Shown piece after piece: positions 7,872 through 41,405 of a stretch of 45,609 nucleotides of DNA. A model generated the notes under the pieces. The model searched no databases. It was given only the letters and a program-made list of their open reading frames with translations, and was not told where the DNA came from. This DNA comes from an uncultured Clostridia bacterium. GTDB taxonomy: Bacteria > Bacillota > Clostridia > Oscillospirales > Ruminococcaceae. The stretch lies in NCBI GenBank assembly GCA_947588805.1, contig CANPYR010000016.1, positions 1-45,609 on the forward strand, given 5' to 3'. Every line of letters begins with the position of its first letter. Position 1 is the stretch's first letter. The translations under genes and the position numbers were made by a program.

Positions 7872-8444
7872 ATGGACTCAATAAAATTCGGTAACTTTGT
7901 CGCCGAAAGGCGGCGCGAGCTCGGTCTGACTCAGAATCAGCTCGCTCAAAGACTCTCCGTCACCAACAAGGCCGTAAGTCGCTGGGAGACCGGCTCGGGA
8001 TTTCCTGACATCACTCTTCTTGAACCTCTTGCGGACGCGCTCGGCGTTTCGGTCGTCGAGCTTATGCATTCTAAACGTCTCGATCTTGATTCCGAAACGG
8101 AAAAGGCCGCGGACAAGGCCGTTAGCGACGCTATTGAGCTTGCGGCTATGAAAAACGCTCAGCGTGAATTCATCGTCGCGGTCGTTCTTCTTTCAATCGT
8201 CGCGGCGGCGGTTATCGCTCTCGGATTCTATTTTCCGAGCGCGCCTACGGTCTGGACCTTGCCTTTTGTTTTTTGTCTTACTTCCGGGACCGGGTGCCTT
8301 ATAAACGCGCTCAGGAAGCGTTCCAAAGGACTTCCCACGGCGCTTTGGTTCACGGTTTCGGGGATATTGCTTACGATAGTCGTAATCCAGACGACGGTGC
8401 TGACATGGCTGGCTATTTTCGCTGCGGAGGGGTGGCTGAAATAG
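7872..8444 (+). CDS. XRE-family HTH regulator with C-terminal membrane segments
   Basis: This 190-residue protein has an N-terminal helix-turn-helix of the Cro/CI type (about residues 7-62: ERRRELGLTQNQLAQRLSVT...AVSRWETGSGFPD). A short polar linker follows, then three hydrophobic stretches (about 100-120, 126-142 and 157-180) that should be membrane segments. Membrane-tethered XRE regulators of this layout are common in Clostridia, but their targets are mostly unknown. It is a single gene behind its own promoter, between two leftward operons. I infer transcriptional regulation and cannot name the regulon or signal. Confidence 0.85.
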   Translation: MDSIKFGNFVAERRRELGLTQNQLAQRLSVTNKAVSRWETGSGFPDITLLEPLADALGVSVVELMHSKRLDLDSETEKAADKAVSDAIELAAMKNAQREFIVAVVLLSIVAAAVIALGFYFPSAPTVWTLPFVFCLTSGTGCLINALRKRSKGLPTALWFTVSGILLTIVVIQTTVLTWLAIFAAEGWLK

Positions 8445-8521: not shown

Positions 8522-8563
8522 TTAATCCTTAATCCTTAATTCTTAACCCCTAATCCTTTACCC
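8522..8563 (+). repeat. Heptad-periodic array, TTAATCC variant (site 2)
   Basis: Six consecutive 7-mers, TTAATCC, TTAATCC, TTAATTC, TTAACCC, CTAATCC, TTTACCC, run from just after the terminator hairpin into the 3' end of the GH97 gene. The GH97 stop codon (8550-8552) and its last codons lie within the array. Confidence 0.85.
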
Positions 8564-13152: not shown

Positions 13153-13857
13153 ATGACACCCAACGGAATAACAGAATACTTTGAAGAAGTAGAAATATCG
13201 GAAGAATACAACGGTTATTTTTGCAGGATACAGGACGTGATCACGGAAGTATGCGTGGACTAAAAAACGTCTTACAAATACACAAGTGGGCTGCAAATGA
13301 CAGAATAAGCGGATTTTTGAAGGAAAAATTCGGAATCATTCATGTGCCCTGTATTACCGGATTCTGTGTATGCTGAAAATAATCAAAACCGAGACGCTCA
13401 ATCAATGCCTTGTGAAACCGAGAATAATTACGGAAGAATCGAGAAAAGAACCGCATTTGTCTGTACTGAAATCGACCGGCTATAGCAGAAAAAGAGTGGA
13501 AAATCTAAGCTGTATCGGCGCAATCCACAACGAATTTGAATCAAAAAGGCCAAGTCTGACGAGTTGCATTATTACATTTCAAGCCGGCCCCTCACAGCAA
13601 ACGAACTGCTCCATCATGCAAGAATGGAATGATCAGTGGAATCGATGCATTGGCTGCTTGACGTTCATTTTGAAAAAGACTGGCGCAGGGCGGAGGATAA
13701 AGCCGTCCAACAGCATTTATATTTGTTTGCAAAGCTGCGATTAACCTTATAAAACTTTATAAATCAAAAACCAACTCGAAAGAATCTATTTCGTGGACTA
13801 TGTTAGAGTACTTGATCGATAATTCGGCTATTTTAAGGGTGGCGGAGGAAATTTGAT
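13153..13857 (+). pseudogene. Decayed ISAs1-family transposase, copy 1
   Basis: Conceptual translation across frames gives the ISAs1 order. It runs MTPNGITEYFEEVEI at 13153, then LQIHKWAANDRISGFLKEKFGI near 13273, then MLKIIKTETLNQC near 13369, then the C-terminal HYYISS...LTANELLHHA, SMHWLLDVHFEKDWRRAEDKAVQQH and MLEYLIDNSAILR. Frames change several times, stops interrupt it, and the middle (with most of the DDE catalytic core) is missing: about 700 bp remain of the usual 1.1 kb. No terminal inverted repeats are recognisable. It cannot encode an active transposase. Its 3' quarter matches copy 2 near 23.7-23.9 kb. Confidence 0.85.
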
Positions 13858-13862
13858 TTGCG

Positions 13863-14122
13863 TGTAGAAATTAGAAATTAGATGATACAAGCAAACAGTC
13901 AGGAAGCCGAAGGGCGGCGTAGCGCAGCGCGGTTTAAATTCTTGCGGTTGCGGCACAGTTACTTACAGCAAAATCGCCCCCGCCCCTCAAAAAGAAAAAC
14001 CACCCGCCCGAAGGCAAGCGATTTTTCCAATATAGTAAATGAACGTGAGAAGCAAATTAAAAAACCATGAAAACAATAAATCAAAATCTACAATCAACAT
14101 CAATGATTAAACAACCGAATAA
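13863..14122. other. Gene-free spacer between IS remnant 1 and trxB
   Basis: It begins with three 7-mers, TAGAAAT, TAGAAAT, TAGATGA (13865-13885), a short heptad array directly behind the transposase remnant. The rest is GC-rich then AT-rich sequence without a supportable reading frame; the 62-codon frame at 13882 has no ribosome site. A stretch at 13942-13962 (TTAAATTCTTGCGGTTGC) resembles one near 31084. No terminator for trxB with a U-tract is obvious. Confidence 0.5.
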
Positions 14123-15075: not shown

Positions 15076-17445
15076 TTACGCGCTTGCGGCGACGTTCTTG
15101 CGAATCTCCGAAACGCCCGCGTATTTCTCAAAGCTTCCGTTCTTGACTACGATAAGAGTCGGGGCCTGTCTTATGTCGAAGGCTTCGCAGAGCTCGCGGT
15201 TCTCGTTTGCAAGAAGAGTCTCGTACTTGTAGCCCTGCTTGTCTAAGATCCCCTTTATCACCTTGCAGTTCGGGCAGGTCGCGGTGGTAAAGAGATATGC
15301 TCCGTCAGTAAGAGAGGTATCGGAGGAAGCTTCCGCGCCCATCTCGACCTTCGATTCAACGCCGTTTCTTCTTAAGACCGACGCTGCGATGTTATAAGTC
15401 TTTCTCTCTTTGAATTCCTGAGCCTTTCCGTCGTTCCAAGCCTGGATAGGTCTGTAGTAGCCTGTTATGCGGCTGTATGTCTCGGTCTTTTCTCCGCAGT
15501 GCGGGCAGACGGGCTGTTCGCCTGTGAGATAGCCGTGGTTGCGGCAGACGGAATATGTCGGGCTGAGCGTATAGTAGGGAAGCTTATAATTTTCCGCGAT
15601 CTTTCTGACGAGATTTGCAGCGCTCTTCCAGTCGGGAAGCTTTTCGCCGAGGAACGCATGGAAAACGGTACCCGAGGTGTAAAGAGTCTGGAGATCGTCC
15701 TGGATATCGAGAGCGGAGAAGATGTCTTCGGTATAACCGACGGGGAGGTGAGAGGAGTTGGTGTAGTAAGGAGTCCCGTCAGAAGCGGTGATGATGTCGG
15801 GATATTTCTCCACGTCGTGCTTAGCGAGCCTGTAGGCGGTGGATTCTGCGGGAGTGGCTTCAAGATTGTAAAGATCGCCGTACTGCTCCTGATAATCCGA
15901 GAGTCTCTCGCGCATATGATTCAAAACGTCCTTGGTGAATTTCTGCGCGGCTTCGTTGGTAAGATCCTCTCTTATCCAGCAAGCGTTGAGACATGCTTCG
16001 TTCATTCCGACAAGGCCGATGGTAGAGAAATGGTTGTCAAGATTTCCGAGGTATCTCTTGGTGTAGGGATAAAGCCCCGCGTCCAAAAGCTTGGTTATTA
16101 CGGTTCTCTTTATCTTAAGGGAGCGAGCGGAGAGATCCATAAGGTGATCGAGTCTCTGATAGAATTCCTCTTCGTTCTTTGAGAGATAAGCGATTCTCGG
16201 CATGTTTATCGTGACTACGCCGATAGAGCCGGTCGATTCTCCGGAGCCGAAGAAGCCGCCGGATTTCTTTCTCAGTTCTCTCAGGTCGAGTCTTAAGCGG
16301 CAGCACATGCTTCTCACGTCCGAAGGCTCCATGTCGGAGTTTATATAGTTAGAGAAGTAAGGAGTGCCGTACTTCGCCGTCATCTCGAATAAAAGCTTGT
16401 TGTTTTCGGTCTCGGACCAGTCGAAGTCGGAGGTTATGGAATATGTCGGGATGGGATACTGGAAACCTCTTCCGTTAGCGTCGCCCTCTATCATTATCTC
16501 GATAAAGGCCTTGTTTACCATATCCATCTCGGGCTTGCAGTCCTTATAGCAGAAGTCCATCTCCTTGCCGCCGACTATGCAGGGCAGATCCGCTAAATCG
16601 TTCGGAACGGTCCAGTCGAGCGTGATATTTGAAAACGGAGCCTGGGTGCCCCATCTTGACGGGGTGTTCACGCCGTATACAAAGCTCTGGATGCACTGCT
16701 TGACCTCTTTGTAGGAGAGATTATCGACCTTTACGAACGGCGCTAAATAAGTATCGAAGCTCGAAAACGCCTGAGCGCCAGCCCATTCGTTCTGCATGAT
16801 CCCGAGGAAGTTCACCATCTGGTTGCAAAGAGTTGAGAGATGGCTCGCGGGGGAGGAGGTGATCTTTCCCTGAATGCCGCCGAGACCTTCTTTTATGAGC
16901 TGCTTTAAGCTCCATCCCGCGCAGTAGCCGGTGAGCATCGAGAGGTCGTGGAGATGTATATCGCAGTCGCGGTGAGCGTTTGCGATCTCCTGATCGTAGA
17001 TCTCTGAGAGCCAATAGTTAGCGGTTATAGCGCCGGAGTTGGAGAGGATGAGTCCTCCTACCGAATAGGTGACGGTGGAATTCTCCTTCACGCGCCAGTC
17101 GTTTATCTGAAGATAGTCGTCCACTATCTGCTTATAGTTGACGACGGTCTGGTTAAGATTCCTTATCTTTTCGCGCTGTTTTCTGTACAGGATATAAGCC
17201 TTAGCCACCGAGTCGTAGCCGGCCTTTATAAGAACGCTTTCGACCGAGTCCTGGATATCCTCGACCGCTACTTTTCCGTCCTTGATCTTCGGCTCGAAGT
17301 CCGCTGTCACCTTAAGGGCCAGAAAATCTATCACATCCTGATTGTACTGCTTTTCGCAGGCGTTGAACGCGGCGATTATGGCGTTTGAGATCTTTGAGAT
17401 GTTAAAATCAACTACCTTGCCGTCGCGTTTTATGACGTTGTACAT
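15076..17445 (-). CDS. nrdD: Anaerobic (class III) ribonucleoside-triphosphate reductase with C-terminal thioredoxin-like domain
   Basis: This glycyl-radical enzyme makes dNTPs from NTPs without oxygen. Residues 1-95 form an ATP-cone (MYNVIKRDGKVVDFNISKI...). A 10-stranded barrel core follows, with SMCCRLRLDLREL. The zinc site is CRNHG...CPHCGEK, and the radical loop RITGYYRPIQAWNDGK places the glycyl radical at Gly662. Unlike the usual 700-residue form, the protein runs to 789 residues: from about 712 a thioredoxin/glutaredoxin-like domain carries Cys724-Pro-Asn-Cys727 and the cis-proline motif QAPTLIVVKNG. This tail probably supplies the reducing electrons with TrxB, encoded next. The gene has its own promoter with NrdR boxes. 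nrdG, its activase, lies just upstream on the same strand. Confidence 0.96.
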   Translation of the reverse strand: MYNVIKRDGKVVDFNISKISNAIIAAFNACEKQYNQDVIDFLALKVTADFEPKIKDGKVAVEDIQDSVESVLIKAGYDSVAKAYILYRKQREKIRNLNQTVVNYKQIVDDYLQINDWRVKENSTVTYSVGGLILSNSGAITANYWLSEIYDQEIANAHRDCDIHLHDLSMLTGYCAGWSLKQLIKEGLGGIQGKITSSPASHLSTLCNQMVNFLGIMQNEWAGAQAFSSFDTYLAPFVKVDNLSYKEVKQCIQSFVYGVNTPSRWGTQAPFSNITLDWTVPNDLADLPCIVGGKEMDFCYKDCKPEMDMVNKAFIEIMIEGDANGRGFQYPIPTYSITSDFDWSETENNKLLFEMTAKYGTPYFSNYINSDMEPSDVRSMCCRLRLDLRELRKKSGGFFGSGESTGSIGVVTINMPRIAYLSKNEEEFYQRLDHLMDLSARSLKIKRTVITKLLDAGLYPYTKRYLGNLDNHFSTIGLVGMNEACLNACWIREDLTNEAAQKFTKDVLNHMRERLSDYQEQYGDLYNLEATPAESTAYRLAKHDVEKYPDIITASDGTPYYTNSSHLPVGYTEDIFSALDIQDDLQTLYTSGTVFHAFLGEKLPDWKSAANLVRKIAENYKLPYYTLSPTYSVCRNHGYLTGEQPVCPHCGEKTETYSRITGYYRPIQAWNDGKAQEFKERKTYNIAASVLRRNGVESKVEMGAEASSDTSLTDGAYLFTTATCPNCKVIKGILDKQGYKYETLLANENRELCEAFDIRQAPTLIVVKNGSFEKYAGVSEIRKNVAASA

Positions 17446-18335: not shown

Positions 18336-18364
18336 ATTATACAACGAGCGAAGAATAAAGTCAA
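18336..18364 (-). promoter_or_regulatory. Promoter of nrdG
   Basis: TTGACT (minus strand, 18359-18364) and TATAAT (18336-18341) are separated by 17 bp, about 30 bp upstream of the nrdG ATG. Confidence 0.88.
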
Positions 18365-18372
18365 GAGGGGAG

Positions 18373-18420
18373 ATACAATATTTTGTGGACATAAAGCGGC
18401 GCGAACACGAAATGCAGTTA
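18373..18420 (-). promoter_or_regulatory. NrdR box, with possible second box, upstream of nrdG
   Basis: ATACAATATTTTGTGG at 18373-18388 matches the NrdR consensus at most positions and sits just upstream of the -35, as at nrdD. A poorer match, ACACGAAATGCAGTTA at 18405-18420, is centred 32 bp further up, again near three helical turns. The first box is convincing in context; the second is tentative. Confidence 0.72.
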
Positions 18421-18476
18421 GAAGACAGAGGTCAGATGTCAGAAATCAGAACTTCAAGGCGTCGCCTATGGCGACG
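18418..18476 (+). repeat. Heptad-periodic array (TCAGANN) plus hairpin (site 3)
   Basis: Six 7-mers, TTAGAAG, ACAGAGG, TCAGATG, TCAGAAA, TCAGAAC, TTCAAGG (18418-18459), are followed at once by the hairpin CGTCGCC-TAT-GGCGACG (18460-18476). The stretch continues with TTTTAAAAATAATGAATAA and a further hairpin. The same series, with changes, occurs at 23.56 kb and inverted at 28.5 kb. Confidence 0.88.
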
Positions 18477-18497
18477 ATTTTAAAAATAATGAATAAT

Positions 18498-18553
18498 GCC
18501 GGGCGGTTTAGACGCTCCCGGCAGAAAGAGATGTGGCCAAGGCGGCCGCGTCT
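18498..18553 (+). repeat. Two further hairpins of the interspersed element at site 3
   Basis: GCCGGG (18498-18503) pairs with CCCGGC (18517-18522). AGATGTGGCC (18529-18538) can pair with GGCCGCGTCT (18544-18553) around AAGGC using G-U pairs. The second hairpin recurs at 23531-23553, where GATGTGGCC and GGCCACATC pair perfectly around the same loop. Unlike at that site, here it lies after the heptad array, not before it. Confidence 0.8.
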
Positions 18554-18569
18554 GATTTTGAATTTCCTC

Positions 18570-18598
18570 TTGCAAAATGTATGAATATGTGCTATAGT
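18570..18598 (+). promoter_or_regulatory. Probable promoter of the MATE transporter gene
   Basis: TTGCAA (18570-18575) and TATAGT (18593-18598) are 17 bp apart. The untranslated leader that follows contains the heptad array at 18624-18665, and AAGGTG (18663-18668) is the ribosome site. Confidence 0.7.
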
Positions 18599-18623
18599 AT
18601 AAAAACGCGGCTTCTGTCCGCAG

Positions 18624-18665
18624 CTAACAACTAACAACTAATTACTAACTACTAACAACTATAAG
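18624..18665 (+). repeat. Heptad-periodic array, CTAANNA flavour (site 4), in the MATE gene leader
   Basis: Five 7-mers, CTAACAA, CTAACAA, CTAATTA, CTAACTA, CTAACAA, then CTATAAG, run from the putative 5' leader up to the ribosome-binding site. A short hairpin, GCGG-CTTCTGT-CCGC, precedes the array. Confidence 0.92.
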
Positions 18666-18673
18666 GTGTTTCT

Positions 18674-20068
18674 ATGCTTAAGAATTTCAAAACAAAATAC
18701 CTCGGGGACCGTGCGTTTTATAAAATGCTTGCTTCGGTCGTTCTTCCCATAATCGTCCAGAACGCTATAACGACCTTTGTCGGGCTTCTTGACAACATAA
18801 TGGTCGGAAAGACCGGCACCGACCCCATGACCGGAGTTTCGATCGCAAACCAGCTCGTTTTCGTATTCAACATCCTGATATTCGGCGCGATATCCGGAGC
18901 GGGGATCTTCACTGCACAGTTCCACGGCTCTTCGGATCAGGACGGCGTGCGATATACCATGCGCTTCAAGCTGATCGTATGCATGCTTATCTCCGCTGCG
19001 GGGATAGTTATATTCGGCCTGTTCCGGGATAATCTGATTTCCCTCTACATATCCGATACCGCAACGGTAGGAGATCCTGCGGCGACTCTTCGGCACGGTT
19101 CGGAATATCTTAAAGTAATGCTCTTCGGGCTTATACCGTTTGCGATAACTCAGTCTTACGCCGGGACTTTAAGAGAAACAGGCGAGACGGTAGTACCGAT
19201 GGCGGCGGGGATAACGGCTGTGCTTGTGAATCTTTCGCTGAACTGGGTTCTTATATTCGGTCATCTCGGCGCGCCCGCGCTCGGAGCAGCCGGAGCGGCT
19301 ATAGCTACAGTCGTTTCAAGATATGTGGAGCTTATAATCGTCACGGCCTGGACTCACAGACATACCGAAAAAAATCCGTTCGCAAATGGACTTTACCGCA
19401 GCGCTAAGATCCCGCTCGATATCGTGAAAGCGATCGTTAAAAAGGGAACTCCGCTTTTGATGAACGAAGCGCTCTGGAGCTTCGGAATAGCGGCGGTAAC
19501 GCAGTGCTATGCCGCAAGAAGTCTTGAAGTCGTGAGCGCGAATAATATCTGCGTGACGGTGATGAATCTTTTCAACGTAGTATTTCTGTCGCTCGGCTCG
19601 GCGATATCGATTATAGTCGGGCAGTCGCTCGGCTCGGGAAAGACCGAGGAAGCGGTCGATACAGACCGGAAGCTTCTATTCATTTCGGTAGTTTCGGGTA
19701 TAGCCACCGGCGCGGTTATGGCGCTCTGCGCGCCCATTTTCCCGCAGTTTTATAATACCGAGCCGCAGATAAGAGAGCTTGCGGCAAAGCTCATACTTGC
19801 GGTGGCGGCGGGAATGCCTGTACAGTCGTTTTTAAACGCCTGTTATTTCACTCTGAGATCCGGCGGCAAGACGGTTATAACCTTCATCTTCGACAGCGGC
19901 GCCATCTGGGCGATAAATTATCCGCTGGTCTATGTTCTCGTGCATTTCGTCCCGTCGATGCCCGTGGAGCTGATAATGCTCTGCGAACAGATGTCGGGTC
20001 TGGTGAGATGCGTTATCGGGTTTATTCTCGTAAAGCGAAGAAGCTGGGTGAATAACCTCACAAAGTAG
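18674..20068 (+). CDS. MATE-family multidrug/metabolite efflux transporter
   Basis: A 464-residue integral membrane exporter expected to use a Na+ or H+ gradient. The hydrophobicity pattern fits twelve transmembrane segments. MATE landmarks include the first segment with ASVVLPIIVQNAITTFVGLLDNIMVGKTG, the SGAGIFTAQFHGS loop near residue 75, and the second-half counterpart VVFLSLGSAISIIVGQSLGSGKTEEA near 300. Substrate cannot be read from sequence. It stands alone between the nrd genes and a converging leftward group, with a terminator behind it. Confidence 0.92.
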   Translation: MLKNFKTKYLGDRAFYKMLASVVLPIIVQNAITTFVGLLDNIMVGKTGTDPMTGVSIANQLVFVFNILIFGAISGAGIFTAQFHGSSDQDGVRYTMRFKLIVCMLISAAGIVIFGLFRDNLISLYISDTATVGDPAATLRHGSEYLKVMLFGLIPFAITQSYAGTLRETGETVVPMAAGITAVLVNLSLNWVLIFGHLGAPALGAAGAAIATVVSRYVELIIVTAWTHRHTEKNPFANGLYRSAKIPLDIVKAIVKKGTPLLMNEALWSFGIAAVTQCYAARSLEVVSANNICVTVMNLFNVVFLSLGSAISIIVGQSLGSGKTEEAVDTDRKLLFISVVSGIATGAVMALCAPIFPQFYNTEPQIRELAAKLILAVAAGMPVQSFLNACYFTLRSGGKTVITFIFDSGAIWAINYPLVYVLVHFVPSMPVELIMLCEQMSGLVRCVIGFILVKRRSWVNNLTK

Positions 20069-22605: not shown

Positions 22606-22640
22606 CTAATAACTAATTACTAACAACTAACAACTATCCG
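22606..22640. repeat. Heptad-periodic array, CTAANNA flavour (site 5), at the metallophosphoesterase stop codon
   Basis: CTAATAA, CTAATTA, CTAACAA, CTAACAA, CTATCCG run from 22606 to 22640. Read on the minus strand, the array encodes the last residues (RIVVSC) and the TAG stop of the metallophosphoesterase, and fills the short gap before the next gene. Confidence 0.92.
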
Positions 22641-23484: not shown

Positions 23485-23513
23485 AGTATAAAACATTTTT
23501 ATGAAAAAGTCAA
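23485..23513 (-). promoter_or_regulatory. Promoter of the metallophosphoesterase group
   Basis: TTGACT (minus strand, 23508-23513) and TATACT (23485-23490) are separated by 17 bp, about 45 bp before the ATG at 23438. Confidence 0.87.
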
Positions 23514-23530
23514 GCGGCGAATAGATCTCG

Positions 23531-23609
23531 GATGTGGCCAAGGCGGCCACATCAAGAATACAGAAGTCGGAAGGCAGACGTCAGAACTTCAAGGCGTCGC
23601 CTATGGCGA
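23531..23609 (+). repeat. Interspersed element: hairpin, heptad array, hairpin (site 6)
   Basis: The hairpin GATGTGGCC-AAGGC-GGCCACATC (23531-23553) precedes the 7-mers ACAGAAG, TCGGAAG, GCAGACG, TCAGAAC, TTCAAGG (23560-23594), which lead into the hairpin TCGCC-TAT-GGCGA (23597-23609). The downstream sequence to about 23650 matches that at 18477-18518 closely. The second ISAs1 remnant begins right after. Confidence 0.9.
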
Positions 23610-23659
23610 AGATTTTAAAAATAATGAATAATGCGGGCGATTTAGACGCTCCCATAGAT

Positions 23660-23911
23660 CTCCTAAGTCAGGAGTGGTCGGCAGAATCGATGCATTGGCT
23701 GCTTGACGTCCATTTTGAAGAGGACTGGCGCAGGGCGGAGGACAAAGCCGTCCAACAGCATTTAAATATGTTTCGCAAAGCTGCGATTAGCCTTACAAAG
23801 CTTTATAAGTCAAGAGCAAACTCTAAAGAATCTATTTCGGGGATTATGTTAGAGTACTTGATCGATAATTCGGCTATTTTGAGGGGTGGGGAAAAATTGA
23901 TTTGCGTGTAA
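23660..23911 (+). pseudogene. Truncated ISAs1-family transposase, copy 2 (C-terminal fragment)
   Basis: An uninterrupted fragment encodes the C-terminal transposase region SMHWLLDVHFEEDWRRAEDKAVQQH, then FRKAAISLTKLYKSRANSKESISGIMLEYLIDNSAILR, and ends GGEKLICV at 23911. The N-terminal two thirds, with the first catalytic aspartates, are absent. The fragment is about 85-90% identical by eye to the end of copy 1 (13640-13866), and both end with the same TTGATTTGCGTGTA. The upstream part of the reading frame is made from the interspersed element, so it is not a real gene start. Confidence 0.87.
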
Positions 23912-23916
23912 AATCC

Positions 23917-23973
23917 GTCGCCGAAGGCGACTCCTCAACTAACTACTAACCACTATTCTCTAACCCCTATTAG
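23917..23973 (+). repeat. Hairpin plus heptad-periodic array, CTAANNA flavour (site 7)
   Basis: GTCGCC-GAA-GGCGAC (23917-23931) is a perfect 6-bp hairpin. It is followed by 7-mers TCCTCAA, CTAACTA, CTAACCA, CTATTCT, CTAACCC, CTATTAG up to 23973. It starts six bases after the end of transposase remnant 2. Confidence 0.88.
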
Positions 23974-28410: not shown

Positions 28411-28498
28411 CTGTTGCATGGGATGGGGATCTGATTTCTGCCTTCTTAACGGTAAACACTGCCCCCTCCCTCCGGTAATTCCTGTCCATATATAAATC

Positions 28499-28556
28499 TT
28501 CGCCGCAGGCGAAACCTTGAAATTCTGACCTCTGACCTCTGTCTTCTGTCCTCTAA
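28499..28556 (-). repeat. Interspersed element, inverted copy: heptad array plus hairpin (site 8)
   Basis: On the plus strand the hairpin TTCGCC-GCA-GGCGAA (28499-28513) is followed by ACCTTGAA and the 7-mers ATTCTGA, CCTCTGA, CCTCTGT, CTTCTGT, CCTCTAA (28522-28556). Read on the minus strand this is the same order as at 18.4 and 23.56 kb: TCAGANN heptads, TTCAAGG, hairpin. The hairpin stem and loop differ in sequence but keep pairing. Confidence 0.88.
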
Positions 28557-28561
28557 AAGCT

Positions 28562-33283: not shown

Positions 33284-36200
33284 TCAGTCAAGTCCCGCAA
33301 GCTTTCTTAAGATAAGCACCGCGTCAAGACTGCTTATGCTGCCGTCGCCGTTCACGTCGGCGGCGTTGATATTAAACTGTTCGTCCTTGAAGTTAGCAAG
33401 GTGACGAAGAATAAGCACCGCGTCAGTAGAGGAAAGCTTTCCGTCGGAGTTCACGTCTCCGGGCATGTACTGCACCGGTATATTCTTTACCGAGTAGACG
33501 TTCTGTAGATAAACGATCTGGGCTTTGAGCGGTTCATCAGGCATAAGAGTGTAAGACATTTGATTCGTCTCTGAGAAAGTCCACCATGCAGATGTATAGT
33601 TAGAGAAGGCGTATGAGGCCGAGTAGTCGGGACATGCAAACGTATACTCGTAGTACTTCGCGCCGTCAAGATCCGTATTTTTTGACTGGTCTATAGTATA
33701 TACGGTTACCGTGTATTCCGTGCCGTTATAAGTCACCTTATCGCCGTTTTTAAACTTCATAAGATCGGAAACCTTGACTGAGACGGGAAGGTTGCGTTCG
33801 GCCTTTAAAGCGCCGGTGACGAGGAAGTTTGAATAGGCGCTGAAGTTGATATTTGCAAGCTTGCCGTCGTACACTGCAGCCGTAGCGCAAATGGCGGAAT
33901 AATAGTTCAGCATAGTGTGACATACCGAGCAGTAGTCGTCAACGGGGAAGTATATGTGATAGTATGTCATCTTCGCGGGAGCGCCTTCCATTTCAACCTC
34001 TTCCACGTTTTCTTCGCCTACTGTAGACTTGATCTTTGTAAGGAATTCATCCTCGGTGAGATCCAAAAGGTCCGTAAGAACAAGCCCTGAAAGATCCTTT
34101 TTCGGCTTAATCTCGTGAGGAGTTATCTCGCAGGCGCTTCCGCAGATCTCACACGCGTATCCGTGGCCGTACATATTGGAAGCAGGGATCGACTTGTCCG
34201 GAACGTGCGGTTCGGGAGCAGCGGTTCTGTCATATCCTCCGCAGCTATCGCAGGCTTTATAGTGCCCGTCGGAATCGTAGACATATGTGTATCTGCCGTT
34301 ATTATAGGTGTGCGGTTCTGACTTGCTGTCGGGATCGATATAATTGCAGCTGTCGCACATTGCTTTATGCCCGTCCGCGTCGACCCATCCTACATAGCCA
34401 TTTTCATAGGTGTGAGCTATCGGGTGTTCGCGGTCGTAATATCCGCAAATATCGCAGGTGAGATAGTGACCCTCTTTGGTATAGCTGTAGCGGTTTACCG
34501 TTTTGCTGTCATAGACGTGAGCGACTATCTTACTCGGATCCGACGTATCGACATAGTTACAGTCGTCGCACATAGGCGCGTGCCCGTTTGCGCCTGCGGA
34601 ACCTATACGTCCTTTTTCGTAGGTGTGAGGGATAGGATTGCTGTTATAGACGTAATAGTTACATTTGTCGCAGCGGTAGAAGTGCCCTTGGGCGTTGAAA
34701 GAATACTGATATATTATCTTTTGATCGAATGTATGAGCTTCCGATTCGCTGTGTTTGTAGTCGCACCGGTCGCAGGTAATATAGTGGCCTGTGCTGTCGT
34801 AGCCGTATCTGTTTAAGCTGAAAGTGTGAGCTATCGGCTCTGCGGACGTATCGGCGTAGAGACAGCTGTCGCACCTCGGGAAGTGACCCACGTCGTTATA
34901 TACGTTATTAGAACTGTATCCGTTGTTATAGGTGTGCGGAATCGGCTCCATATCCTTGTTGCTATAGTAGCATGTATCGCACCTGTAATAGTGACCCTCG
35001 GATGTATAGCCGTCGGTAGAGGTAGATACGATCTTTTGATCGTATGTGTGCTCATGAGTCTGAGTCTTATCCTCGTAGTAGCAGTTGTCGCAGAGTAGCC
35101 AGTGCCCTGTTTCGTCGTACATATAATTTCCGTTGCTGTAAGAGTGCGGTATTATAGGCGAGCTGTCGTCGGAATATCCGCAGTCGTCGCATCTGGCGTA
35201 GTGCCCCTCTTCGGTATAGCGGCTAAAAGAACTGTCTTTATTGTTATAGGTATGCGGAATCGGATCCATATCCCTGTTGGTGTAATAGCAGGTATCGCAC
35301 TGATAGTAGTGGCCCTTGGAGGTACTATTGTATGAACTGGCAACTATTTTTAATTCATACGTATGAGCCTTGTATTCTCCGTTGACGTATCCGCAGCTGT
35401 CGCAGAGAGCAGCGTGACCGTCGTCATTATAGGTGTAATTCTGTTTTTCGTAGGTGTGAGGTAGGACCTTTGATTGGTCCACATACCCGCACTTGTCGCA
35501 ACGAATATAGTGGCCGGTCTCGTCATAGCTGCCATAGCTTGTTCTGTTCTCGGTATATGTATGCTCTTCGACGTCGACGTTCTGACGGCATCTATTGCAA
35601 TACTTGTAGTGACCTTCATCGTTATAGGAGTAGTAATCATTTGTATTGTGGTGCGCTGTTCCGCAGACCGTGCAAACGCAGTTGCTCCTATTGAGAGAGT
35701 GCGTTCCCGAATCCAACTTCAGACCGCAGACCGAGCAGATATGGTAGTGGCTTACGTCGTCGTATTCCCATCCGTCGAACTGGTGCTCGTGCTCGAAGTA
35801 TCCGCATACGCACTTGCCGTTTGAATCGAACGAGTGCTGTGCGATATTAAATCCGCGGCCGCACTCCGTACAGATAATCACGTGATTTTCATCGTTGAAC
35901 GCATACTCGGTACCGGTATGGGTGCAGTTGGAATCTATTACTTCCGTCTTATAGAAGTAATAGGTGTTTCCGATAGGATCAAAGTGTTCGCTTCCGGTCC
36001 AGCTGTTGCTGTTTTCAAAATAGTAGTAAAGAGTATCTTCCCTATCGAAGGAGCCGAAATCTCCCTTCTTAGAGGAAGCGGCCTCATACGTCGAAAAGAT
36101 AGATTCATTCGTACCGGAAACAATAGTTAATTCAGGAATGAACTCCTTGAGCTCGGGAGCTTCGCCGTCAAAGATAATCTTCTGATCCGGAGAAAGTAAG

Positions 36201-37486
36201 AAAGCGTTTCCGTCGATTTTTTTGACCGACGCGGGAATAGTGACCTCGGGAAGAGAGTAGCAATTATAGAAGGTCGCATATTCTATAGTCGTAAGCTTTT
36301 GAGAAATGACGGCTTCGCTCAATGCCGTGCAGGTGTCAAAGGCCGATGGGCCTAAATATACCACGCTGTCCGGAATTACTACGCTTTCCAAAAGCGGGCA
36401 TCTTACGAAAGCTTCTTCGTCTATTCTTTCAATTCCGTTTTCAAGAGTCAGCTGCGCGAGCTTTTGACATGACTGAAAAGCATTTGAGCCGATTGTCTTA
36501 ACGTTTCCGGGAATTGTAACGTTAGTCAGCTGGGTGCACATAAACACCTGATTTTCAATAGTTTTCAGCGAAGCGGGGAAATCTATTGACGTTAAGCCGG
36601 CATCTCCGAAGCAATACCCTCTTATCGTCTCAAGCGCGGACGGAAGCTTGATAGATGTAAGAGAAGAACAGTTGTTAAACATTCCCCATCCGAGAGTCTT
36701 GAGAGTATCCGGAAGATTAACTTCGGAAAGCGAGGAACAGTCGCCGAAAACACTGTCGCCAAACTCGGCGTCGGGGTTTGTGATAGTAACCGATTTGAGA
36801 TTATTATTGCCGCTAAACGCCCACTCTCCGATTTTAACTACGCTTTTAGGGATAACTAAAGTTTCAAAGTCGTATGACTTTTTATAATACGATCCCCAGT
36901 AATGGAAAGCGTCTTTGCCTATGGATGTAACGCCATCCTCAATGACAAGCTTTGAAATTACTCTGCCGACAACCGAGTAGGCAGGCTGTACTTCCCCAAG
37001 CGGGTTTGCATTTGAAGAGCCGTAATCCCACATGTCTCCTTCTCCGGAGATAGTAAGAGTTTCGGTTGCTTCGTCGTAGCTCCAGGTTAAGTTATCGCCG
37101 CATTTGCCGGAAACCGGTGCGTCTTCCTCTTCCCCCTGCACCGCGTCCTCGATAATCTCCATCTCGCCGATGACTACATCCTCCGGCAAAACAGGAAGCT
37201 CCGGCAATTCGGGCAGCTCCGGCAGCTCCGGGACTTCAGTCCCATCCCGGACCTCTTCGTCCTCCGCAGGAGCGGCAGGCTCGGATTCTTTCGGTTGCTC
37301 AACCGGCTCTGCGGGCTCCGACTCGGGCTCGGCTTCCGCTTCACCCTCAGCCGCTTCCGGGAGCGTTACTTCCGCCGCCGGATCTTCCGGCAGAGGCTCG
37401 GAGCCGACAGGATCCGCATACACGGACGAGGTCATTATGCCCAGAGCCATTACGATCGCCATAATCAATGCTATGAGTTTTTTCAT
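33284..37486 (-). CDS. Giant secreted surface protein: BspA-type LRRs, 17 HxxxCxxC repeats, C-terminal dockerin
   Basis: A 1400-residue exported protein. The ATG at 37486 has GGAAGG upstream and gives a signal peptide (KKLIALIMAIVMALGIM...VYA). Next come a Pro/Glu-rich linker with a tandem PEL run (about residues 25-125) and the CGDNLTWSYDEATETLTISG opening module. About ten BspA-like leucine-rich repeats (LRR_5) fill residues 179-435. Residues about 535-1125 hold seventeen copies of H-x3-C-x2-C, roughly one per 35-40 residues, most followed by an HTY-like histidine, so each could bind a metal. A less repetitive region follows. Residues about 1341-1400 form a type I dockerin with two DxNxDGxxxxxD calcium loops (GDVNSDGKLSSTDAVLILR, DVNGDGSISSLDAVLILR). 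This implies attachment to a cohesin scaffold. Ligand and role are unknown. Confidence 0.93.
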   Translation of the reverse strand: MKKLIALIMAIVMALGIMTSSVYADPVGSEPLPEDPAAEVTLPEAAEGEAEAEPESEPAEPVEQPKESEPAAPAEDEEVRDGTEVPELPELPELPELPVLPEDVVIGEMEIIEDAVQGEEEDAPVSGKCGDNLTWSYDEATETLTISGEGDMWDYGSSNANPLGEVQPAYSVVGRVISKLVIEDGVTSIGKDAFHYWGSYYKKSYDFETLVIPKSVVKIGEWAFSGNNNLKSVTITNPDAEFGDSVFGDCSSLSEVNLPDTLKTLGWGMFNNCSSLTSIKLPSALETIRGYCFGDAGLTSIDFPASLKTIENQVFMCTQLTNVTIPGNVKTIGSNAFQSCQKLAQLTLENGIERIDEEAFVRCPLLESVVIPDSVVYLGPSAFDTCTALSEAVISQKLTTIEYATFYNCYSLPEVTIPASVKKIDGNAFLLSPDQKIIFDGEAPELKEFIPELTIVSGTNESIFSTYEAASSKKGDFGSFDREDTLYYYFENSNSWTGSEHFDPIGNTYYFYKTEVIDSNCTHTGTEYAFNDENHVIICTECGRGFNIAQHSFDSNGKCVCGYFEHEHQFDGWEYDDVSHYHICSVCGLKLDSGTHSLNRSNCVCTVCGTAHHNTNDYYSYNDEGHYKYCNRCRQNVDVEEHTYTENRTSYGSYDETGHYIRCDKCGYVDQSKVLPHTYEKQNYTYNDDGHAALCDSCGYVNGEYKAHTYELKIVASSYNSTSKGHYYQCDTCYYTNRDMDPIPHTYNNKDSSFSRYTEEGHYARCDDCGYSDDSSPIIPHSYSNGNYMYDETGHWLLCDNCYYEDKTQTHEHTYDQKIVSTSTDGYTSEGHYYRCDTCYYSNKDMEPIPHTYNNGYSSNNVYNDVGHFPRCDSCLYADTSAEPIAHTFSLNRYGYDSTGHYITCDRCDYKHSESEAHTFDQKIIYQYSFNAQGHFYRCDKCNYYVYNSNPIPHTYEKGRIGSAGANGHAPMCDDCNYVDTSDPSKIVAHVYDSKTVNRYSYTKEGHYLTCDICGYYDREHPIAHTYENGYVGWVDADGHKAMCDSCNYIDPDSKSEPHTYNNGRYTYVYDSDGHYKACDSCGGYDRTAAPEPHVPDKSIPASNMYGHGYACEICGSACEITPHEIKPKKDLSGLVLTDLLDLTEDEFLTKIKSTVGEENVEEVEMEGAPAKMTYYHIYFPVDDYCSVCHTMLNYYSAICATAAVYDGKLANINFSAYSNFLVTGALKAERNLPVSVKVSDLMKFKNGDKVTYNGTEYTVTVYTIDQSKNTDLDGAKYYEYTFACPDYSASYAFSNYTSAWWTFSETNQMSYTLMPDEPLKAQIVYLQNVYSVKNIPVQYMPGDVNSDGKLSSTDAVLILRHLANFKDEQFNINAADVNGDGSISSLDAVLILRKLAGLD

Positions 37487-37554
37487 GGTTTCTTTCCTTC
37501 CCTTGAAAATTTTTTCGGTCGGCGTTTTCATGATACGACCGACTTATAATTCAT

Positions 37555-41370: not shown

Positions 41371-41405
41371 CTCTGACTTCCGACTTCTCAATTCTGTCCT
41401 CTGAT
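41371..41405. repeat. Heptad-periodic array, CTCTGAN flavour (site 10)
   Basis: CTCTGAC, TTCCGAC, TTCTCAA, TTCTGTC, CTCTGAT fill 41371-41405 between the typA terminator and the 3' end of the pentapeptide-repeat gene. On the minus strand this is the TCAGANN flavour. Confidence 0.8.

Follow-up and report, generated by a model that had tools for sequence, protein, structure and literature searches.

Period-seven intergenic arrays of a Ruminococcaceae bacterium lie in part within a short, MITE-like element that probably targets promoters

Short arrays of seven-base units recur between the genes of an uncultured Clostridia bacterium of the family Ruminococcaceae, raising the question of what they are and how they came there. 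A sequence-only reading of one contig (CANPYR010000016.1, positions 1 to 45,609; the window) had listed eleven such arrays in two flavours, TCAGANN and CTAANNA, and had left their function open. We examined the arrays in the window, in the rest of this genome, and in related genomes. In our reading, the TCAGANN arrays with recurrent flanks are probably the inner segment of a family of MITE-like, nonautonomous elements of about 124 bp, found in this genus and targeted to promoters.

Results

Period-Seven Arrays in Noncoding DNA

The letters of all the arrays listed were found in place. We scanned 445,609 bp, about 22% of the available genome sequence, made up of the window and the opening 20 kb from each of 20 other contigs, and found 59 runs at lag 7 in noncoding DNA vs. 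7 in coding DNA. Other lags from 4 to 30 gave 0 to 10 noncoding runs each, the exception being the harmonic 14 with 35. Within the window, the spacers held five lag-7 runs, and neither the coding sequence nor 50 dinucleotide shuffles held any. A detector for the single motif CTRAYHW identified 56 noncoding and 10 coding arrays in the wider sample, compared with 3 and 2 for the pattern read backwards. The scans and shuffles bear out that period-seven arrays exist, mainly in intergenic DNA, in two flavours and far above chance; the converse, that such runs are no commoner in spacers than in shuffled sequence, is contradicted by this sample.

Each array was also compared with 400 shuffles of its enclosing spacer by counting the shuffles that reached it. 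The arrays at 8522, 18418, 18624, 22606, and 28522 were reached by none, 41371 by 3, 13865 by 12, and 23932 by 22. Five of the eleven listed arrays thus beat every shuffle and 41371 beats 397, but those at 23560 (108 of 400), 8444 (111 of 400), and 37611 (400 of 400) do not stand out alone: the last, listed as weak, is no array by this test, and at 8444 the supposedly constant step of seven is wrong, the CAG triplets following at steps of 8, 7, and 8. The array at 23560 is weak as a periodicity, yet homology places it inside a complete copy of the element described below. The opposite strand of TCAGANN reads CTGA and the other flavour is CTAA, so on their letters the two look like two states of one motif.

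A 124-bp Element Around the TCAGANN Arrays

With 49 arrays read in one orientation, recurrent flanks emerged: GATGTGGCCAAGGCGGCCACATC-AAGAAT before the array and TTCAAGG-GTCGCCTATGGCGAC-GATTTTAAAAATAATGAATAATGCGGGCGATTTAGACACTCCC after it. The resulting element is noncoding, about 124 bp long, and composed of hairpin A, usually four heptads, TTCAAGG, hairpin B, and a right inverted repeat, its ends being GGGAGTGTC...GCAT and AGATGTGG...CACAT; hairpin A is the palindromic left inverted repeat. The window contains one complete copy, one truncated copy, and one fragment, with these parts and neighbours:

23530–23653, plus strand: complete 124-bp mini-element, 94% identical to the query copy over 2–124 (profile match, E=5.9e-35)
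23521–23529, no strand: left target-site duplication ATAGATCTC, a 9-bp exact direct repeat
23654–23662, no strand: right target-site duplication ATAGATCTC, a 9-bp exact direct repeat
23485–23513, minus strand: sigma70-type promoter TTGACT-17-TATACT, its −35 box starting 16 nt from the edge of the complete copy
23531–23553, plus strand: hairpin A/left inverted repeat GATGTGGCC-AAGGC-GGCCACATC, with paired changes across copies
23560–23587, plus strand: heptads ACAGAAG TCGGAAG GCAGACG TCAGAAC of the complete copy
23596–23610, plus strand: hairpin B GTCGCC-TAT-GGCGAA, its outermost pair broken in this copy
23631–23653, minus strand: right inverted repeat GGGAGCGTCTAAATCGCCCGCAT
18418–18519, plus strand: 5′-truncated copy without hairpin A (profile E=2.1e-25, model 24–124; 92% identity over query 26–124), with heptads at 18418–18452, hairpin B at 18461–18475, and the right end
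18529–18553, plus strand: hairpin A standing alone, lying 16 nt from the −35 box of the promoter listed next
18570–18598, plus strand: promoter TTGCAA-17-TATAGT upstream of a MATE gene (consensus match)
18336–18364, minus strand: promoter-like TTGACT-17-TATAAT upstream of a divergent radical-SAM gene
28489–28559, minus strand: partial copy (profile E=2.8e-14, model 21–91), with heptads at 28522–28556

RNA folding of the window copy gave z scores of −3.5 and −2.4 on the two strands, with hairpin A formed in both and hairpin B partly rearranged; we did not count these scores as evidence of function. Searches of the window for known RNA families and tRNAs found none. A 124-base query gave at least 29 matches in this genome, with 28 of 90 candidates scored. 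From 33 BLAST places in the stretches analysed, which lean to well-kept copies, we retained 27 near-complete copies (query start ≤3, end ≥114).

Target Duplications

Direct repeats of at least 7 bp flanked 21 of these 27 copies, compared with 0.28% of mismatched flank pairs, and their modal length was 9 bp; most well-kept copies have duplications of 8 to 9 bp. In six other genomes of the genus, 43 of 44 places were retained (start ≤3, end ≥105): 22 in G165, 10 in G151, 4 in G163, 3 each in G161 and G162, and 1 in G156. They come from 40 stretches among the best-scoring query matches and thus lean to well-kept copies; 21 of the 43 had direct repeats of at least 7 bp, vs. 1.0% in the control. 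As target duplications flank the copies, we take these to have arrived by transposition. The copies without such repeats, 6 of 27 and 22 of 43, would be older ones that have decayed. Bacterial MITEs are short, noncoding sequences with inverted ends, target duplications, and many intergenic copies, and the element resembles them in each of these traits, its many copies being dispersed.

Among the 63 arrays without hairpin A, we observed no clear excess of direct repeats (at least 9 bp in 5 of 63, 7.9%, vs. 4.0%). Conserved genes of the relatives are about 65 to 82% alike at the DNA level and orthologous spacers are mostly not alignable, which precluded a comparison of empty sites or unit numbers between strains.

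Conservation Within the Element and the Case for Slippage

We aligned 74 distinct copies, 24 of them from this genome, after dropping identical ones. Double-sided pairing changes were found in 33 and 22 cells for the two hairpins, where the maxima among shuffles, which ignore relatedness, were 16 and 10; such compensatory changes support, rather than prove, that both hairpins keep pairing. The G of all four AG cores had zero entropy. Recognised cores were spaced 7-7-7 in 42 copies and 7-7-8 in 21; the other 11 had longer or irregular spacing. With an invariant G and 21 of 74 copies spaced 7-7-8, the letters of the core are conserved no less than the period, and the earlier suggestion that period rather than sequence is conserved fails inside the element. 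One copy in this genome (locus L027, 222–346, minus strand) has TTAGA units in place of TCAGA.

Arrays of this kind could be heptanucleotide microsatellites grown by polymerase slippage, with hairpins and promoters as bystanders. According to PMC4692102, several bacteria have an excess of heptameric repeats, for which slippage has been suggested as a cause, and our data include a near-identical copy with one extra heptad (locus L010, 1591–1722). Arrays are uniform in flavour, with 88% of adjacent units alike vs. 53% when units are shuffled between arrays, and over all arrays the two free bases were common to neighbours in 21.5%, compared with a mean of 14.1% and a maximum of 22.4% in shuffles. 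In TCAGA arrays, however, the free bases of neighbours are no more alike than those between arrays (13.4% vs. 13.9%), giving no sign of recent slippage, and many of them hold a constant position in a 124-bp element that is flanked by target duplications. Slippage is thus disfavoured for TCAGANN arrays inside elements and possible for CTAANNA arrays; as the explanation of the arrays in general, we consider it improbable.

Position Relative to Promoters

A −35 box was found 13 to 16 nt from the hairpin-A edge in 19 of the 27 copies, exactly 16 nt away in 13, and one more copy had a box at 34 nt. Among the relatives, 22 of 43 places had a box 14 to 16 nt away on the hairpin-A side, and four others had one elsewhere within 60 nt. 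Promoter calls were consensus matches: shuffled flanks in the relatives had boxes at 13 to 17 nt in 0.28%, and the null for this genome, 7.5% (score ≥9 within 30 nt), is looser. On the far side of the element, boxes at 15 to 16 nt occurred in 2 of 27 and 4 of 43 cases; the orientation is strongly preferred, with the hairpin-A end facing the promoter. No box was scored at 13 to 16 nt on the hairpin-A side in 8 of the 27 copies and 21 of the 43 places. Four of these eight have TGCAAG at the usual place, as seen by eye, which the scoring missed, and some of the eight are flanked by a promoter at the far end.

Copies also lie next to other arrays. Another heptad array followed just past the right end in 11 of the 27 copies, against a background of 5%, and one lay on the promoter (left) side in 4 of 27. 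The frequency of arrays past the right end suggests that new copies enter between the promoter and older material.

Placement upstream of −35 boxes, together with the near-invariant AG core, is also what one would see if the arrays were cis-regulatory sites under selection, a regulator or RNA polymerase binding each TCAGA. The target duplications show arrival by transposition instead, within one genus pattern counts range across species from 0 to 142, and arrays adjoin stop codons as well as starts, so we give this explanation a low probability. The fixed distance to the −35 box could, in turn, reflect survival only, insertions in the polymerase-bound region being lost and those further upstream being neutral. 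The copies do lie outside the promoter and leave it intact, but survival alone predicts a spread of distances past a lower bound, whereas the boxes cluster at 15 to 16 nt with one prevailing orientation; we judge it quite unlikely that nothing more is involved.

Arrays Beyond the Element

Matches to a model of the full element (E≤1e-3), which includes the heptads, numbered 47 in the sample and overlapped 35 of the 59 lag-7 runs; the reversed sample gave no match. With a heptad-free model, the right half of the element was found to follow 19 of 47 TCAGA, 1 of 10 TAGA, and 1 of 7 TAGT arrays, compared with 1.6% of random noncoding positions, tying 21 of 64 arrays to the element. Judged by independent sequence, a minority of arrays thus belongs to it. 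Arrays without hairpin A may be old or decayed relatives, or parts of different elements. In the window, three arrays had no element profile match at E≤1e-3:

8522–8563, plus strand: TTAATCC-type array
13865–13885, plus strand: three-unit TAGAAAT array
41371–41405, minus strand: degenerate TCAGANN array

Taken together, TCAGA-type arrays have a gene boundary at one end: they lay within 22 nt of an open reading frame end in 18 of 39 cases on the TTAGA/ACAGA side vs. 2 of 39 on the other side. Gene boundaries here are greedy open reading frames of at least 90 aa, called without a gene caller, so distances on the start side are rough. Among 14 pairs of neighbouring arrays, 6 were convergent, 8 tandem (5 and 3), and none divergent, an orientation bias that is suggestive in a number too few for more.

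Some further repeats were observed along the way. A direct repeat of about 260 bp (88 to 89%) at 13626–13885 and 23671–23913 adjoins a heptad array in each copy and seems to represent two decayed copies of the 3′ end of a transposase gene, whose product, by eye, may be ISAs1-like. TTAGA arrays are followed by CAAACAGTCAGGAAGCC or a close variant in locus L014 (2004–2038 and 6519–6546) and in the window (13864–13884), and in L014 this neighbour forms a long hairpin. Repeated protein-coding segments, often about 100 bp apart, occupy 34241–35631 within an open reading frame of 1415 aa (33284–37531).

The CTAANNA Arrays

Arrays of the second flavour lie in the window at three places, one of them next to a trace of the element:

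18624–18665, plus strand: CTAANNA array preceded by the promoter at 18570–18598 and followed by the ribosome-binding site of the MATE gene, whose ATG is at 18674
22606–22640, plus strand: CTAANNA array in a short spacer between two minus-strand genes, overlapping the stop codon of the upstream gene
23932–23973, plus strand: degenerate CTAANNA array
23909–23935, minus strand: segment matching the element's right half, without heptads (E=3.1e-4), adjoining the 23932 array

The array at 18624–18665 is predicted to be unstructured as RNA. Counting overlaps, the CTAANNA pattern matched 31 times in this genome. In 23 other genomes, 22 of them of the same genus, it matched between 0 and 3 times each, which is background level, as the backward control also reaches 3. 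Judged by eye, eight of nine printed CTAAYHA arrays touch a ribosome-binding site, −35 box, or stop codon or come to within about 10 nt of one, and the ninth lies within a dispersed unit bounded by inverted TTAG/CTAA arrays. We read the CTAANNA arrays as sharing the motif class but forming, for the most part, a set of their own that hardly extends beyond this species; at least some belong to small dispersed units of another kind. One unit distinct from the element, about 115 bp long with inverted TTAG/CTAA arrays at its ends, was seen at loci L018 (63–190), L102 (1601–1906), and L103 (about 15283–15430).

That the arrays are three-frame translation stops, with TAA or TGA halting every frame within three units, is most improbable: CTAANNA and the reverse strand of TCAGANN do bear TAA or TGA every seven bases, and by eye some CTAANNA arrays fill the spacer from stop codon to ribosome-binding site, but G4 and A5, outside the stop triplet, are invariant in 203 TCAGA-type units (T1 being T in 150, with a detector that favours the motif), and the sense strand at gene ends is often stop-free, again by eye.

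Distribution in Other Genomes

The element query matched 9 of 31 genomes examined, all nine in the genus; its counts, within the genus and outside it, are lower bounds, some of the candidates having been scored per genome. Of 31 genomes of the genus, 14 contained three TCAGANN units in a row, with 1 to 142 matches each, and 17 contained none; the backward control gave 0 in 30 genomes and 1 in one. Among 148 genomes sampled from the family, 5 had the same pattern. One of these five, from another genus (G122), had 191 such matches, with different flanks in the two loci viewed, and may represent an independent expansion or a shared machinery.

Outside the genus, 13 of the 18 element-query matches listed consist of the heptads alone; two listed matches in G035 (77%) extend across hairpin B, and the remaining three, from two genomes, lie in other parts of the element. 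We found no copy of the element in plasmids and phages and neither of two exact right-end patterns in viral contigs. Four TYAGANN units, searched across the genome collection, gave mostly single matches among those listed, spread over many phyla, so this pattern is too short to be specific. In 118 collection loci, the heptad-free model matched nothing at E≤0.01, and the full model matched mostly heptads. At locus L209 (940–1013, minus strand), a hairpin-A-like sequence is followed by TTAGA heptads. The left half of the element may, from its letters, be more widespread. A contig of Oscillospiraceae bacterium bin66 (L161) has five TTAGA arrays in 4 kb, with inverted partners and similar middles, and no match to the right half of the 124-bp element; these arrays suggest another small repeated element.

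Search for a Transposase

Models of candidate transposases were run against the genomes. The ISLre2 model exceeded its cut-off in 0 of 22 genomes, with one weak match (18.3 bits, G151) in an IS256-like gene, and the ISKra4 model in 0 of 13, with weak matches in five, apparently in those IS256-like genes; the UPF0236 model was silent in the controls too and is uninformative. As this genome is 86% complete, these results do not prove absence of a transposase. A longer element with matching ends was sought in the stretches scanned, about a quarter of the genome, and none was found.

IS256-like elements occur in 8 of 22 genomes. This genome has IS256-like transposase genes at C20:25457–26545 and in six further matches, several at contig ends, and the IS256-like terminal repeats are GGTAATGTCAAG and GATAAGGTACAA. 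We rejected this transposase as the partner of the element: judged by eye, the terminal repeats differ, and the element is present in G165 and G161, which showed no IS256-like match.

Discussion

The arrays raise the question of whether they resemble anything described. Heptameric intergenic repeats are known outside cyanobacteria from Xanthomonas, and those of Nostoc and Xanthomonas are, like ours, 7-bp units in spacers with degenerate letters (PMC4692102, as far as its available text goes). They differ in being G-rich repeats (GGGAATC or GGGGA(C/T)T) studied as quadruplex formers, whereas ours are TCAGANN or CTAANNA and in part belong to a mobile element; with a good part of the arrays inside the element, they are not free-standing G-rich arrays of that type. 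In the literature searched, which left aside most subscription papers, we found no heptameric intergenic repeats in Clostridia, nor, with preprints outside PMC also left aside, any promoter-targeted MITEs. We know of no named bacterial MITE with promoter-distance targeting or a heptad core.

Closer parallels come from the transposase families ISLre2, TnGBS, and ISKra4 (p-MULT 3/4), whose elements make direct repeats of 8 to 9 bp; p-MULT elements measure 1.1 to 52 kb (PMC3942029, Guerillot et al. 2014, here and below for the part of that paper available). ISLre2/TnGBS (p-MULT 3) elements insert in one orientation 15 to 17 bp, with a peak at 16 bp, upstream of −35 boxes, and have unequal inverted repeats, traits that the element here shares. 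Unlike it, at 124 bp and without a gene, they encode their transposase, and internal heptads go unmentioned for them in the available text (PMC3942029). Some ISKra4 (p-MULT 4) elements likewise insert upstream of sigmaA promoters; those members have promoters on both sides and almost perfect inverted repeats, whereas here one orientation prevails (PMC3942029). A preference of ISLre2 and ISKra4 for positions 50 to 250 bp from genes, consistent with promoter targeting, is given in the portion of PMC9208149 at hand. The inverted repeats of p-MULT 3/4 elements are 18 to 39 bp long with a conserved terminal cytosine (PMC3942029); ours are imperfect and about 23 bp, the right end mostly closing in C and the left terminal base being A in most copies. 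The length of the direct repeats, the offset of about 16 bp from the −35 box, and a prevailing orientation are shared with these families, and an accompanying transposase is not. In these respects, the element works like promoter-targeting Mutator-like (ISLre2/TnGBS/ISKra4) elements, a likeness that falls short of demonstrated membership.

We propose that the elements are mobilised in trans by a promoter-targeting DDE transposase of the Mutator-like type, which would presumably contact either RNA polymerase bound at the promoter or the bent DNA at that site. The unequal ends would set the orientation of insertion, and successive copies would come to lie between the promoter and their predecessors. 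The heptads, near the promoter-facing end, might perhaps be an internal protein-binding or spacer segment. For arrays with element flanks, a mobile-DNA origin comes close to the recombination remnants once proposed as one option; the other arrays are not covered by it.

A bolder idea is that the heptad is a portable module, a platform with several sites for a protein that is recruited to RNA polymerase, carried by several otherwise unrelated small elements of Clostridia, with insertions stacking up at the promoter edge so that the spacers keep their order. The inverted TTAG/CTAA arrays of L018, L102, and L103, the inverted TTAGA arrays of L161, and the heptad-only matches in other genera point this way; we regard it as speculative and, on present data, unlikely.

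Under the reading we prefer, a promoter-targeted mobile element, a 124-bp sequence with dozens of copies per genome in several species would be a compact natural record of promoter-directed transposition, a process so far described, in the sources available to us, for transposase-bearing ISLre2/TnGBS/ISKra4 elements. Its many insertion junctions would allow one to ask what the transposase sees, be it polymerase, bent DNA, or sequence. Relative insertion ages may be read from stacked elements, and in such bacteria conserved-looking sequence upstream of promoters can be mobile DNA and not a regulatory motif.
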